Position numbers and translations under genes: made by a program. A stretch of DNA of 64,000 nucleotides from Wohlfahrtiimonas sp. G9077 (GTDB lineage Bacteria; Pseudomonadota; Gammaproteobacteria; Cardiobacteriales; Wohlfahrtiimonadaceae). The notes below the pieces were generated by a model that had not been told where the DNA came from, did not search any database, and worked only from the letters and a program-made list of their open reading frames with translations. Where the stretch lies: NCBI RefSeq assembly GCF_002252155.1, contig NZ_NEFD01000001.1:186001-250000 (forward strand), in the 5' to 3' direction. Every line of letters starts with the position of its first letter. Position 1 is the first letter of the stretch. Shown here in pieces: positions 43,642-51,491 of the stretch.

Positions 43642-44916
43642 TTACTGAGCTTTTGTTGAGTTTTTCTCAAGGTATGCTTTGTAGGCGCGATTGAACTCAT
43701 TTGGCAAAGGCTTAAGTACACCTAAATACTCATACAGCTCCGTTTGATATAAGCGATGCTGATATTTATGTGCTTTACTGCTAAATGGATACGCCACACA
43801 ATACAAGAAGGCAAAGAGCGACACCACAAACAACAATAAGCTCATTAAATTTGGCGAAGGCGGCGGTGCACCAAATTGATTGTTCCCTTCAATCCCAGGC
43901 ATTGAGAAGAGCAAAATCGCCCCGATGATCATAGCAGCATACACCACCCATTTGATGATGGCATCAATCTGCTGTAAAAAATGACGTTGGCTCGTTTGGG
44001 CTAAATAATCTTTCAACTCTGCCTTTAAAGCAAAATATTGCTCGCTCATGCTGTGTTCTCTAACAAAGAGCTCAGCAAACTGCACTTGAGCATCTTTAAG
44101 CACATAATAGTTTTGCACAAACAGACTGAAGATTAAGGTGAAGATCAAAATCGTCACAAATGCCATTTTACCAATCGATAAATTATCAATGTCACAAAAA
44201 CGCTGACTGACAATCATCAACATAAATGTAATTGCAAAAAAAATGAAGAAAAAAGAGATGATGAAACTTGCACTGCCTAACGCATCATATAGATAAAGCG
44301 GCAAAATATTGAGGCAACCAAATAAAATGGCAAATGCCAAAGTGATTCGGTACAGAAAATATAAACGCCCAATGCGCACACCACTATGCAATAAAGGCGG
44401 CGTTGGAGCAATGTCACGATCATCAATCTCAATATTATGATTGGGATTTGCACGGGTTTTGGCAATGCGCTTCATCTTCTCAACACGATTGCTTTCTAAC
44501 TCAGAAACATCATCCGTGTGGCGCATCAATGTCAATTCTTCAGGTGCTTTCAAATAATCTTTTGCGGCTAATTTTCGCTCAGTATGAGTCGGCGAATGAT
44601 CAGTCGCCGCAGGTTTAGCGTTAGGCGCAATGGTTTGTGTTCGCGTAACCTCCGGCATTGATAACTCAGGCATTAGGTCATCGACATCTAAATCAATGTC
44701 TGCAATTAAACCCGCATCTGCCAATGCTGTTTGATATTCAATGGCATCACCTTCAGACAAACCGGTGATCAACACAATCGATTGACCCCCTTTTGCAAAA
44801 AACCTCTGATAAACCTCTTCGGTCGTTTGATCAAAAAGATCAGACAAATTTTCAAGGATCATCTTTTGATCAACCGTGCGATCAACCTTTCCTCGAAAAA
44901 CGACTTTGTATTTCAT
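43642..44916 (-). CDS. membrane protein with DUF805-like region and N-terminal soluble domain
   Basis: A 424-aa protein. Residues about 1-75 form a soluble domain (K-Y-K-V-V-F-R-G-K-V then E-E-V-Y-Q-R-F-F and A-L-A-D-A-G), a module found in front of various small membrane proteins and of unknown role. A charged, disordered-looking linker follows (about 80-175). The C-terminal part has R-I-G-R-L-Y-F-L-Y-R (near 182) and S-Q-R-F-C-D-I (near 253), which resemble DUF805 landmarks, and about five membrane helices in all. It is upstream of lepA with a 60-base gap containing a lepA -10. Function unknown; I am confident it is a real gene. Confidence 0.7.
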   Translation of the reverse strand: MKYKVVFRGKVDRTVDQKMILENLSDLFDQTTEEVYQRFFAKGGQSIVLITGLSEGDAIEYQTALADAGLIADIDLDVDDLMPELSMPEVTRTQTIAPNAKPAATDHSPTHTERKLAAKDYLKAPEELTLMRHTDDVSELESNRVEKMKRIAKTRANPNHNIEIDDRDIAPTPPLLHSGVRIGRLYFLYRITLAFAILFGCLNILPLYLYDALGSASFIISFFFIFFAITFMLMIVSQRFCDIDNLSIGKMAFVTILIFTLIFSLFVQNYYVLKDAQVQFAELFVREHSMSEQYFALKAELKDYLAQTSQRHFLQQIDAIIKWVVYAAMIIGAILLFSMPGIEGNNQFGAPPPSPNLMSLLLFVVSLFAFLYCVAYPFSSKAHKYQHRLYQTELYEYLGVLKPLPNEFNRAYKAYLEKNSTKAQ

Positions 44917-47065: not shown

Positions 47066-47905
47066 ATGTCAATTTGCTACGTTGTTGCAACACCAATTGG
47101 AAATATTGATGATTGGTCACCGCGCGCCATCGAAACTTTAAAAAGCGTTGATGTCATTTTTGCCGAAGACACTCGACACTCCGCTAAACTGATGCAGCTC
47201 TTTAACATCCAAACGCCGATGCGCTCCCTGCATGATCACAACGAAACTGACCGCATAGATGAGATCTTAAATTTATTAAATGATGGACAAAATTGCGCCA
47301 TCATTTCAGATGCGGGCACGCCGCTCATCTCTGATCCGGGCTTTAAAGTGGTGCGTGCCCTTCGTGAAGCGATGCAAACTGTGATTCCCATTCCCGGCGT
47401 CAGCGCATTGATCACCGCATTATCCGTTTCTGGCATTGCTACGGATCGCTTTAGCTTTGAAGGTTTCTTACCTGCAAAATCCGCAGGCCGCAAAGCGCGC
47501 ATGAATGAGGTGCGTAAAGATTCCCGCACTTTGGTCTTTTATGAATCAAGCCACCGCATTTTGCAAATGCTTGAAGATGCCATGGCAGTGTTTGGCGAAG
47601 ATCGCTATGCCTTCATTGGCCGTGAAATGACCAAACGTTATGAAAGCTATCTCTCAGATCGCCTGAACAATCTGCATGAATACTATACAACCCATTCAGA
47701 TGAACAACGTGGCGAATATGTTGTGGTGATCGAAGGGGCAACAGTTGACGCCAGCGAGCCAGAAAGCATCGATTTAACGGAACTTTTGACCATTTTATTG
47801 GATGAATTGCCCTTAAAACAAGCGGTGAGCATTGCCACAAAAGTGACAAAATTATCGAAAAATCATGTGTATCAAGCTGCACTGGCGATCCAAAATAACG
47901 TATAA
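47066..47905 (+). CDS. rsmI: 16S rRNA (cytidine1402-2'-O)-methyltransferase
   Basis: RsmI adds a ribose methyl to C1402 in the ribosomal P site. The 279-aa SAM enzyme of the tetrapyrrole-methylase fold begins I-C-Y-V-V-A-T-P-I-G-N-I-D-D-W-S-P-R-A and has E-D-T-R-H-S-A-K. It also has I-S-D-A-G-T-P-L-I-S-D-P-G (near 91-103), I-P-G-V-S-A-L near 115 and F-Y-E-S-S-H-R-I near 160. A C-terminal tail of about 45 residues follows the catalytic domain. Divergent from yraN, 54 bases between starts. Confidence 0.95.
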   Translation: MSICYVVATPIGNIDDWSPRAIETLKSVDVIFAEDTRHSAKLMQLFNIQTPMRSLHDHNETDRIDEILNLLNDGQNCAIISDAGTPLISDPGFKVVRALREAMQTVIPIPGVSALITALSVSGIATDRFSFEGFLPAKSAGRKARMNEVRKDSRTLVFYESSHRILQMLEDAMAVFGEDRYAFIGREMTKRYESYLSDRLNNLHEYYTTHSDEQRGEYVVVIEGATVDASEPESIDLTELLTILLDELPLKQAVSIATKVTKLSKNHVYQAALAIQNNV

Positions 47906-47935: not shown

Positions 47936-49165
47936 ATGTCAGACGCAACTGTCAATACCAGCACAAAATTATTACCGGGCGAACTCGGTCTTAGCCTCAA
48001 ACTCGCAGGGCTTTTTTCCATTCGGATGTTGGGCATTTTCATCATCTTGCCTGTGCTGACTCTATACAGCCAAAGCTTAACGGGCTCGACCCCATTTTTA
48101 ACGGGCCTTGTGTTTGCAAGTTACGCATTGACGCAGATCTTACTGCAACCGATCTTTGGCGTTGTTTCCGATAAAATGGGCAGAAAACCAGCATTAATCG
48201 CTGGTCTTGGGTTATTTATTGTGGGCAGCATCATCTTAATGTTTGCCAGCCACGTTTATGTGGCCATTTTAGGGCGCATCATTCAAGGCGCCGGCGCAGT
48301 GTCGGCTGTTGTACTGGCTTTGGCCACGGATTTAACCCGTGAATACATTCGCTCAAAAGTCATGGCCATGATCGGTGTCAGCATTGGTTTAACGTTTGGT
48401 GTGGCGATCTCCCTTGCTCCCATCATCTATATGGTGGCCAAAGGCTATGGAATTTTTGGTGTGTGTGCGCTCATGGGTGCCCTTGGCATTTACGCCACCA
48501 TCAAATTCATTCCCGATGCACCGATGCCCACTGAAGCGATGAAAACAAAACGCGAAAGCTTATCTGAGCTCACCCGCATCGCTTTTAGTAATGGCAATGT
48601 GGTGCGTTTATACTTTGGCGCTTTCATGCTGCATCTCTTATTAACGATGACGTTCGCCGCCATGCCAAGCCTTCTTGGTAAATTGGAAATCTCTGGCGGT
48701 TCTGCCACGCTCTATTATGTGAGCACCTTTTTCATCTCATGCATCATCATGTTTGCTTGCGTAGGTTTAGCAGAGCGTTTTTATCGTCACCGTGTCTTAT
48801 TTCTATTTGCCATTTTATTTTTAGCATTGGCATATTTAGGCTTAATTGTTTCTGAAGATGGCAGCCATGCCCTCTTTTTCTGGGGATTATTGTTATTCTT
48901 CTTTGGATTTAACGTCATGGAAGCGATGCAGCCTTCCATCATGTCGCGTGCTGCCGATCAGAACTATCGCGGCACCATTATGGGCGTTTTTTCCTCCTCA
49001 CAATTTTTAGGCACCTCCATCGGCGGGATGCTTGGCGCTACAATCAGCGGTTATTTTGGCGTACAATATGTCTTTTACTTGGCATTTCTTTTAGCAGCTG
49101 TTTGGTTCGCCATCGCATGGCCCATGCAAAATCCTGTGAAACCTCAAAAGAAAGCAGACGCATAA
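47936..49165 (+). CDS. major facilitator superfamily transporter, YajR-like
   Basis: A 409-aa inner-membrane protein with twelve predicted helices. The MFS motif A is G-V-V-S-D-K-M-G-R-K-P-A (near residue 76), followed by I-I-Q-G-A-G-A-V-S near 118. Overall pattern and the opening R-M-L-G-I-F-I-I-L-P-V-L resemble YajR, but the extra C-terminal soluble YAM domain of YajR is missing; the tail is only a short Lys-rich end. Likely a proton-driven exporter; substrate unknown. AAGGAG precedes the start; the stop overlaps the next start (TAATG). Confidence 0.85.
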   Translation: MSDATVNTSTKLLPGELGLSLKLAGLFSIRMLGIFIILPVLTLYSQSLTGSTPFLTGLVFASYALTQILLQPIFGVVSDKMGRKPALIAGLGLFIVGSIILMFASHVYVAILGRIIQGAGAVSAVVLALATDLTREYIRSKVMAMIGVSIGLTFGVAISLAPIIYMVAKGYGIFGVCALMGALGIYATIKFIPDAPMPTEAMKTKRESLSELTRIAFSNGNVVRLYFGAFMLHLLLTMTFAAMPSLLGKLEISGGSATLYYVSTFFISCIIMFACVGLAERFYRHRVLFLFAILFLALAYLGLIVSEDGSHALFFWGLLLFFFGFNVMEAMQPSIMSRAADQNYRGTIMGVFSSSQFLGTSIGGMLGATISGYFGVQYVFYLAFLLAAVWFAIAWPMQNPVKPQKKADA

Positions 49166-49905
49166 TGGAAGCAGAAACCTTAAAAATTAAAGTGGCACAA
49201 AAAATGATCGGGCTGATTGATATGCCCTATCTATTTTTAAACCTAGATGCAAACAAAGTGGCCGAAGAGGTCAAAAGCATCGGCGCCATCGCCTCAATCA
49301 CAACCTTTGCACAACACGTTGCACCCCTTCGTGAAGCATTTGGCGATGCTGTGCCAACCATTGCCACCATCATCAATTATCCCTATGGACCTTTTAATAC
49401 ATACAATGCCACCCAAGAGATGAAGCAAGCCTTGGATGCCGGCACCGATGAGATTGATTTGGTCTTTCCCTATCAAGCCTTGGTCAATCGCCAAGCGGGA
49501 TTATGTTTGAAATTTTTGAACACCATGCGGGAAACTGCAGGTGATACACCATTAAAGCTCACCATTGAAGCCGGCATCTTACAAGATGCCAAATGGATTC
49601 GAAAAGCCACAGAATTGGCTGTCAGAAGTGGCATGAATGTCGTCAAAACCGCTTCAGGTCGCAATCGTCAACAAATCACCCTCACCATGGTACAAATGAT
49701 GCTGACTGTGATTGAAGACATGAATCCTGAAACGGGCATTCACATCGTGACAACCAACAACAATTTTACCGAAGCTTCACAATACTTAGAAGAAGTCATC
49801 AGCCGCTTAGGCACATCATGGGTTGATGCTTCTCATTTCCGTTTGAGTGGTCCAAATTTAGTCAGCTCCATTTCAGAGCTACTGGCTCAAGACCATGCTA
49901 TTTAA
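49165..49905 (+). CDS. DeoC-family aldolase homolog with altered active site
   Basis: A 246-aa TIM-barrel protein clearly related to deoxyribose-phosphate aldolase. D-E-I-D-L-V-F-P-Y carries the conserved Asp98, and V-V-K-T-A-S-G carries the Schiff-base Lys161 (E. coli Lys167). The E. coli segment G-F-K-P-A-G-G, holding the second catalytic lysine (Lys201) and phosphate-binding glycines, is here I-V-T-T-N-N-N-F (194-201). The lysine and both glycines are gone. The Cys47 region also differs. The reading frame is intact, so this is a divergent protein, not a frameshift. It may act on another substrate or be inactive. ATG overlaps the MFS stop. Confidence 0.85.
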   Translation: MEAETLKIKVAQKMIGLIDMPYLFLNLDANKVAEEVKSIGAIASITTFAQHVAPLREAFGDAVPTIATIINYPYGPFNTYNATQEMKQALDAGTDEIDLVFPYQALVNRQAGLCLKFLNTMRETAGDTPLKLTIEAGILQDAKWIRKATELAVRSGMNVVKTASGRNRQQITLTMVQMMLTVIEDMNPETGIHIVTTNNNFTEASQYLEEVISRLGTSWVDASHFRLSGPNLVSSISELLAQDHAI

Positions 49906-49926: not shown

Positions 49927-50706
49927 ATGAATCCACAATTAACCATCGCACAAAAAAGTGTTTCTAAAGTTAGCCGTTTAATCAACCAAATTTTTGAACA
50001 AACCGCTAAATTAAGCCAAGCACAACGCGAAGAGACCGAACGTTTTGACATCTTTTACGCACAAATTGAAACCGAGATTGCCAAAGAAATTTTATATGCA
50101 TACCCAGACCACACGGTAGAAACAAAACTCACAGGTGTGCACGGCCCTGCCCACAATAAATCGTATTGGTATGTCAGCGGCATCGTTGGTAAACAAAACT
50201 TCTTAGGTGGCAATGCTGACTTTGCAGTTTCTGTAGCCTACATGGTCGATGACAAATTAATGGCCGGTTACGTTTATGCACCAATGTCACAAAAAACCTA
50301 CATGGCTGTGAAAAATGAAGGCGCGACTTTAAATGACATTCGCATCCGTTTACCTCGCCACAGCGGCCGCATCAGCGATGCCCTTTTACTCACAGATGCG
50401 CGTTCATTGCGTAAAGAAAATGTCATGATGACTGCGCATTTACATCATCTCTCTTTAGGTGTTAGAGTGTTAGGCGATGAAGCATTGAGCATCTGCGAGA
50501 TGATTGAAGGGAAAGCCTCAGCAGCTTGGTTAAATGCCTTTGATCCTTGTGATCATTTAGCGGCTGTCTTGATTGCACAAGAAGGCGGCGCTTTAGCCAC
50601 TGACTTTAATGGCAATGAAGTGGACATCAGCGCTGAAAATGCAGCTTTTGCCACACCTAAATTGTTAAAACCTTTATTACAATCCATCCATCAAGCCAAA
50701 CGTTAA
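49927..50706 (+). CDS. SuhB/inositol-monophosphatase homolog lacking metal ligands (pseudoenzyme candidate)
   Basis: A 259-aa protein aligning with E. coli SuhB along its length and opening M-N-P-Q-L-T-I-A, like SuhB M-H-P-M-L-N-I-A. The metal-binding signature W-V-I-D-P-L-D-G-T-T-N-F is replaced by WYVSGIVGKQNF (81-92), so both aspartates are lost (Ser84, Val87). The E-E-S-G element is K-L-T-G (66-70 region), and only the late Asp209 in D-P-C-D-H-L-A-A remains. With four of five ligands gone, catalysis is not expected. SuhB also acts, independently of catalysis, in rRNA antitermination with Nus factors, and such a role is possible here. The frame is intact. Confidence 0.85.
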   Translation: MNPQLTIAQKSVSKVSRLINQIFEQTAKLSQAQREETERFDIFYAQIETEIAKEILYAYPDHTVETKLTGVHGPAHNKSYWYVSGIVGKQNFLGGNADFAVSVAYMVDDKLMAGYVYAPMSQKTYMAVKNEGATLNDIRIRLPRHSGRISDALLLTDARSLRKENVMMTAHLHHLSLGVRVLGDEALSICEMIEGKASAAWLNAFDPCDHLAAVLIAQEGGALATDFNGNEVDISAENAAFATPKLLKPLLQSIHQAKR

Positions 50707-51491
50707 TGAAGATCCGGAAATCTCAATTACTTGCCCCATTACTCACCCTGTGCTTCATGCCAGAAGCACACAGTTTATCGTTGTTGATGCAAAAGTATCA
50801 CAATGTTGAGTTTGCAGTTGTTGAGGTTTCCGAACATGATTCATTACAGCTTTTTTGGAAAAATCCCGCCACCGAGCAGCCTTATCAATCTTTTTCAACG
50901 CTCAATAAAACGTTACAAAAAGAGAAAAAACAGCTTCTCTTTGCCATTAACTCTGGCATTTTTGGGCAAGATCAATCGCCGCTCGGCTGGCATATGGAAA
51001 AAGGCGAACTCTTAAAGGGCTTAAATCAGATCACACGCACCAATGCCATTGGGAATTTTTCATTGATTCCAAATGGCGTTTTTTTTGTCAACCAAGATGG
51101 TTCGCGCCATGTTCTAGAAACTGAGAATTTTCTTCGCAATCAAAAACGTTATGCGCCTTTATATGCCACGCAATCTGGCCCAATGCTTGTGGTCAATGGT
51201 CAGTTGCATCCAAAATTTTTTGCGTCCTCCGACAGCTTAAAATATCGCAGTGGCGTGTGTGTCAAAAATAACAATACTTACTTTGCAGTCACACAAAACC
51301 CCATCAATTTTTATTACTTTGCTAAATTTTTTCAAGAAGAATTGGGCTGTCAAAATGCTCTTTATCTCGATGGTACGTTGTCACAACTCTCTTATCTTGG
51401 GAAAATTTATGGCGCACCCTTTTGGAATGTGCGCCCATACGTTGGCATTTGGGCGGTTACGAGCCCGATGACAAAGGAAATGTCAAAGTAA
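50706..51491 (+). CDS. secreted phosphodiester glycosidase-domain (NAGPA/DUF2233) protein
   Basis: A 261-aa precursor with a signal peptide (basic start, hydrophobic residues 8-18, cleavage near A-H-S at 23). The mature protein has the NAGPA-family marks: F-A-I-N-S-G-I-F near residue 79, Q-S-G-P-M-L-V-V-N-G near 157 and N-A-L-Y-L-D-G-T-L-S near 227. Family members remove or process sugar phosphodiesters, and some act on cell-wall or teichoic-type polymers; the substrate here is unknown. ATG overlaps the SuhB-like stop, and the last 35 bases overlap the 3' end of cpxA on the other strand. Confidence 0.82.
   Translation: MKIRKSQLLAPLLTLCFMPEAHSLSLLMQKYHNVEFAVVEVSEHDSLQLFWKNPATEQPYQSFSTLNKTLQKEKKQLLFAINSGIFGQDQSPLGWHMEKGELLKGLNQITRTNAIGNFSLIPNGVFFVNQDGSRHVLETENFLRNQKRYAPLYATQSGPMLVVNGQLHPKFFASSDSLKYRSGVCVKNNNTYFAVTQNPINFYYFAKFFQEELGCQNALYLDGTLSQLSYLGKIYGAPFWNVRPYVGIWAVTSPMTKEMSK

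Follow-up and report, generated by a model that had tools for sequence, protein, structure and literature searches.

Deoxyribose-phosphate aldolase of the Escherichia coli type (DeoC or DERA; EC 4.1.2.4; PDB 1jcl) is a standard biocatalyst. In published accounts, K201 is described as critical to the E. coli enzyme, K167 and K201 are assigned to the sixth and seventh strands (PMC4725968), and the phosphate contacts named are K172, S238, G205, G171, V206, G236 and S239 (PMC8403123). Engineers have modified C47, F200, G204, S238 and S239. According to PMC8403123 and PMC6244999, mutants at these five positions lose activity on deoxyribose 5-phosphate (DR5P), or gain it on non-phosphorylated substrates or in acetaldehyde condensation. 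A search of titles and abstract openings in the open-licence PMC literature returned no report of a natural DeoC lacking K201, nor of the protein described here, and open-licence PMC text yielded nothing on an aldolase of Wohlfahrtiimonas.

Here we analyse a DeoC relative, called DeoCx below, encoded in a 64,000-nucleotide stretch (the window) of a Wohlfahrtiimonas genome of 2.1 Mb. The gene lies in a block of co-directional genes (Table 1) and is an open frame whose ATG overlaps the stop codon of the upstream MFS gene (TAATG). The protein belongs to the Pfam DeoC/LacD family PF01791 (38 bits against a gathering cut-off of 23.8) and scores below the cut-off of the curated deoxyribose-phosphate aldolase equivalog TIGR00126 (81.1 versus 117.3); the copies in W. 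chitiniclastica and L017 score 83.4 and 85.3 with the same model. DeoCx is 93% identical to its counterpart in W. chitiniclastica DSM 18708 and 68-75% identical to the W. populi and W. larvae proteins and to the proteins of two MAGs named Wohlfahrtiimonas sp. Protein and family searches found no second, ordinary DeoC in the window genome, DeoCx being the sole DeoC relative found. In plasmid and phage searches (179 and 6 records), all matches were below 60% identity. Near the block, a membrane protein (window 43642-44916) is diverging faster than its neighbours, with 42-48% identity to four more distant genomes.

Table 1. Features of the DeoCx locus, in window coordinates
Feature	Position	Strand	Remarks
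RsmI (tetrapyrrole methylase family with RsmI C-terminal domain)	47066..47905	+	Conserved upstream marker of the block
MFS transporter; stop overlaps DeoCx start	47936..49165	+	Scores under all NCBIfam cut-offs listed
DeoCx, DeoC-lineage TIM-barrel protein, 246 aa	49165..49905	+	K161 and D98 kept; H193 at the K201 position
Codons of residues 97-99 (I-D98-L), D102 equivalent	49453..49461	+	Position computed from the ORF start
K161 codon, equivalent of the Schiff-base lysine K167 of E. coli	49645..49647	+	Alignment
GIHIVTT codons, residues 191-197 = E. coli GFKPAGG 199-205	49735..49755	+	H193 at K201
SGPN codons, residues 228-231 = E. coli GASS 236-239, phosphate site	49846..49857	+	Alignment
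IMPx, inositol-monophosphatase family, metal-binding motifs lost (GEE to ETK, DPxDGT to SGIVGK)	49927..50706	+	Closest curated model E. coli-type SuhB
Phosphodiester glycosidase (NAGPA, PF09992) family protein	50706..51491	+	Start overlaps IMPx stop

The active site of DeoCx

DeoCx was aligned with DeoC of E. coli K-12, whose numbering we use for positions. The original prediction, made from the sequence alone, held that the Schiff-base lysine and the catalytic aspartate remain, and both are present: K167 corresponds to K161 and D102 to D98 in all six Wohlfahrtiimonas genomes. K131 and T162 are likewise invariant in the six. The same prediction stated that the second catalytic lysine and the glycine pair are gone; this also agrees with the alignment, in which K201 is replaced by H193, G204 by T196 and G205 by T197. 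It had, however, placed GFKPAGG opposite I-V-T-T-N-N-N-F, a register that is off by about two residues. The real counterpart of residues 199-205 is G191-I-H-I-V-T-T197, with I194 for P202 and V195 for A203. Replacement of the lysine by a run of threonines and asparagines is thus rejected, since the aligned position holds H193.

The predicted loss of the phosphate loop was borne out, and the change is wider than was claimed. Further replacements are T18 to P21, C47 to T46, F76 to Y72 and V206 to N198; in the phosphate-site motif, G236 has become S228, S238 has become P230 and S239 has become N231. K172 is R166 in DeoCx and serine in one Wohlfahrtiimonas genome. Of the phosphate contacts that PMC8403123 names, seven in all, G171 alone is therefore kept and the other six are changed.

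An AlphaFold model of DeoCx built from six sequences (pLDDT 72.6, medium confidence) has the DERA fold (Foldseek TM ~0.80), and the solved structures that it matches best are those of DERAs and their redesigned forms (Z 20-21). It matched the E. coli structure 1jcl with a VIA Z of 20.7 and an rmsd of 3.0 over 239 residues. The sixth predicted strand carries K161 and the seventh carries H193. A substitute lysine in the model had been named as a finding that would speak against the prediction. Apart from K131 and K161, which correspond to K137 and K167, the predicted strands contain no lysine, and on strand positions we reject the idea that another lysine fills the place of K201.

The predicted fold raises the question of whether DeoCx is a slower deoxyribose-phosphate aldolase, in which His193 would replace K201 and phosphate would be held at an alternative site. 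Loss of the lysine is tolerated by the fold: an E. coli chain with leucine at position 201 has been crystallised (1jcj), and a structure exists for the K184L mutant of the Bacillus halodurans enzyme (6msw), K184 presumably corresponding to K201. The number of altered phosphate contacts speaks against such an activity, as does the genomic context described below, and we consider it improbable.

Distribution and divergence of the altered site

Histidine occupies position 201 in 6/6 Wohlfahrtiimonas genomes. Among the other DeoC rows, lysine is present in 44 of 45 (40 of 41 distinct genes), the remaining row being masked there. These 45 rows comprise relatives from the family and the order, 29 class-level loci and E. 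coli, with four of the genes fetched twice; the class-level search covered 369 genomes, of which 48 matched and 30, including the window's own, had their sequences fetched. Because the histidine occurs in every Wohlfahrtiimonas genome and in none of the 40 readable distinct DeoC genes, its presence is not a matter of chance. The original prediction had asked whether the change is shared; it is genus-wide and mostly fixed.

The sister genus (g3; two genomes, L007 and L008) carries a DeoC at the same locus, between the MFS gene and IMPx. This protein keeps K201, C47, the glycine pair, the GASS motif and T18, has arginine at K172, and passes TIGR00126 with 153.6 bits. Since the syntenic gene retains these residues, the site was altered along the branch leading to Wohlfahrtiimonas. 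In a further genus (g4), the block YraN-RsmI-MFS-IMPx-NAGPA-HK-RR lacks deoC in the five genomes read, and a search of the five gaps between MFS and IMPx found no remnant of it (two chance-level matches, E 3.5 and 1.7). Away from the block, an E. coli-like DeoC adjoining deoB is encoded in two of nine g4 genomes. In the neighbouring family, several ordinary DeoCs adjoin ORFs that, judged by eye, resemble nucleoside transporters and thymidine phosphorylase. One genome (G027) encodes a second DeoC-like protein (L081:1468-2271, minus strand) with D102 changed to E, G171 changed to H and K201 kept; it adjoins an ORF resembling a divergent DeoA.

The six DeoCx rows group as a single clade (support 100/100) in the tree, on a stem of 2.31 changes per column compared with 0.61 for the sister branch. 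The grouping of g3 with DeoCx has support of 93/69; the bootstrap of the tree was not fully settled. Compared with eight outgroup rows, the g3 DeoC shows 36-42% identity and the DeoCx rows show 23-34%, g3 being the closer to all eight. We also counted 40 columns conserved to 95% or more across 33 other DeoCs, a set from which 12 further non-DeoCx rows were excluded (the g3 row, three of the B. subtilis type, and eight others: fragments, duplicate or masked rows and the odd L081 protein). The g3 protein keeps 36 of these columns. DeoCx keeps 21, including D16, D102, K137, K167, T168 and G171; another ten have changed yet are uniform within the genus (T18, A45, C47, V73, F76, T170, K201, G204, G236 and S238) and nine are variable, a division into kept and fixed that was made post hoc and was not planned beforehand.

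Within the genus, dN/dS of DeoCx could be obtained for three pairs with usable dS (window-W. chitiniclastica, W. populi-W. larvae and the MAG pair) and was 0.15, 0.06 and 0.09; dS was saturated for distant pairs. In the closest pair, the ratio of 0.148 exceeds those of seven neighbouring genes (0.028-0.078), and this counts against DeoCx being an enzyme. The differences between the window and W. chitiniclastica proteins are concentrated at residues ~14-79 (pN 0.129, compared with 0.005-0.027 further on), a cluster that perhaps reflects recombination.

The loss of catalytic residues, together with the absence of the gene from the block in the five g4 genomes, could be taken to mean that DeoCx is a decaying gene or a sequencing artefact. 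The frame is open in six assemblies, dN/dS is 0.06-0.15, and the active-site replacements are fixed even though the proteins are just 68-93% identical to the window's, so we regard this as very improbable. A pseudogene is rejected by the pattern of selection and by the fixed replacements. DeoCx has been rebuilt and selected, with purifying selection coming after a long stem.

The deoxynucleoside pathway and the neighbouring IMPx gene

Genes for deoB and for the C-terminal domain of pyrimidine nucleoside phosphorylase were each found in the same five of the 18 genomes of the family. In four of the six Wohlfahrtiimonas genomes, the window's included, neither deoA nor deoB was found, and DeoCx therefore has no obvious supply of deoxynucleosides in most genomes. 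For the same reason, it probably no longer serves deoxynucleoside catabolism. The two Wohlfahrtiimonas MAGs with deoA and deoB (G016 and G017) carry a separate DeoC of the B. subtilis type beside deoB (L011, L012 and L013; G017 has two copies). The separate DeoC, DeoB and DeoA of these MAGs may come from foreign contigs, that is, contamination. Absence of partners is a weak criterion, as the g3 genomes also lack deoA and deoB. From the g3 DeoC without partners it follows that the pathway was lost before the site was rebuilt, or independently of it. For a slow deoxyribose-phosphate aldolase these observations are unfavourable on three counts: the feeder genes were not found in most of the genus, the two genomes that have them use another DeoC, and the sister DeoC is unaltered although its partners are gone, showing that pathway loss alone does not force such changes.

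The gene downstream of DeoCx has also diverged from a known enzyme. IMPx belongs to the inositol monophosphatase family PF00459 (104 bits), and its best NCBIfam model is that of E. coli-type SuhB, NF008027, with 82-84 bits against a cut-off of 332. In Wohlfahrtiimonas, the motifs GEE, DPxDGT and WD are represented by ETK, SGIVGK and CD. GEE and DPxDGT are missing in all 14 IMPx rows read, which come from all four genera of the family (window 49927-50706; L040-L050, L054, L055 and L062), and in Wohlfahrtiimonas the gene is under strong purifying selection. The predicted structure of IMPx was unusable (pLDDT 38.6). A canonical SuhB as found in the rest of the order, where the best ten rows are 39-51% identical to E. 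coli SuhB, was not found in any of the 18 family genomes; the better-preserved relative in the window genome was scored best by the histidinol-phosphatase model. Because the motifs are lost, the best model is SuhB and a canonical SuhB was not found, IMPx is plausibly a SuhB that lost catalysis; the tree of IMPx and SuhB, with its long branches, is not enough on its own to settle orthology. According to PMC6614801, the consequences of a suhB mutation in E. coli can be relieved without the phosphatase activity of SuhB. The C-terminal repeats of NusA are present in 16 of the 18 family genomes, including all six of Wohlfahrtiimonas. SuhB-like proteins with broken catalytic motifs (TAIDGG; SPMDSQ) were also seen at L132, L141 and L147, which belong to three genomes from the neighbouring family, and loss of the SuhB catalytic motifs may have been repeated.

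IMPx shows that relics of enzymes devoid of catalytic residues are kept in this operon, which argues against reading DeoCx as an enzyme. DeoCx could itself be a pseudoenzyme, a barrel used for binding or scaffolding (as a ligand sensor, or as a partner of IMPx or the MFS protein) without turnover, with K161 and D98 serving folding or ligand binding. The loss of the second catalytic lysine and of most phosphate contacts would fit such a role, as would the score below the TIGR00126 cut-off and the precedent of an adjoining gene that lost its metal motifs and is nevertheless strongly constrained. A pure binder, on the other hand, needs no reactive lysine, and K161, D98, K131 and T162 are invariant; moreover, of the 19 conserved columns that have changed, ten are fixed and not drifting. 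We hold this to be a substantial but somewhat doubtful alternative.

A proposed reaction and comparison with known systems

DeoCx probably does a new job. The reading that we favour over a non-catalytic binder, and to which we attach an evenly balanced expectation, is that DeoCx may be a Schiff-base enzyme whose carbonyl substrate bears no phosphate and whose proton carrier is His193. Synteny and the tree suggest that its ancestor was an ordinary deoxyribose-phosphate aldolase, encoded between the MFS gene and IMPx before Wohlfahrtiimonas and the sister genus split. On the Wohlfahrtiimonas stem, as the alignment shows, the Schiff-base half of the site (K161, D98, K131 and T162) was retained and the second lysine gave way to His193 and the phosphate cup to other, mostly fixed residues. 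K161 would form a Schiff base with a carbonyl compound, and an aldol, retro-aldol or related enamine reaction would proceed on a phosphate-free substrate, protons being transferred by D98 and His193 instead of D102 and K201.

Further points weigh against an enzyme. A histidine may be unable to perturb the pKa of K161, and retention of K161 and D98 is in itself weak evidence, as 21 of the 40 class-conserved columns are kept anyway. The original prediction had offered three options: another, perhaps non-phosphorylated substrate, an altered mechanism or a role outside catalysis. In general terms this is supported, given the altered phosphate contacts, the absence of deoA and deoB and the genus-wide spread of the change, although sequence does not decide among the three. 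The prediction had missed the invariant histidine able to relay protons, the unaltered g3 version at the same locus and the degenerate gene next door.

DeoCx represents a natural lineage changed, under selection, at all five positions chosen by engineers and at K201 as well. With a relative of ancestral site at the same locus, it offers a before-and-after test of whether Schiff-base aldol chemistry requires the second lysine, and the pair also probes the capabilities of a DERA pocket that is free of phosphate. The adjacent IMPx is a separate natural test of whether the phosphatase activity of SuhB matters.

With E. coli-type DERA, DeoCx shares the TIM barrel, the Schiff-base lysine, the catalytic aspartate and the equivalents of K137 and T168; it differs in the histidine at K201, in six of seven phosphate contacts, in C47 to T and T18 to P, in its score below the model cut-off and in having no deo operon partner. 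The g3 DeoC occupies the same place and is 38% identical, but has retained the ancestral type of site. IMPx and SuhB have the inositol monophosphatase family PF00459 in common, IMPx lacking the metal-ligand motifs GEE and DPxDGT. The KE70 Kemp eliminase designs use a His-Asp dyad. Built on the E. coli DeoC scaffold (3npu, 8fmd), they are rebuilt sites in a DeoC fold and rank among the best structural matches to DeoCx; they are artificial, whereas DeoCx is natural, and the likeness seen is one of fold. Engineered DERAs (C47V/G204A/S239D, solved as 6z9h; S238D; F200I), made to favour the aldol reaction or substrates without phosphate, are changed at the same positions as DeoCx. In the available parts of the sources, however, they list no change at K201, which is H in DeoCx, and most substitutions differ residue by residue. 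F200I does give the residue found in DeoCx, but isoleucine at position 200 is non-specific, since the sister genus and other natural DeoCs also have I or L there. As a tentative picture that we put forward as possible, DeoCx could be a natural counterpart of the DERA redesigns: a Lys161/Asp98/His193 site without a phosphate cup, for an unphosphorylated carbonyl compound maybe handled by the MFS transporter, with a metal-site-free descendant of SuhB encoded next to it.
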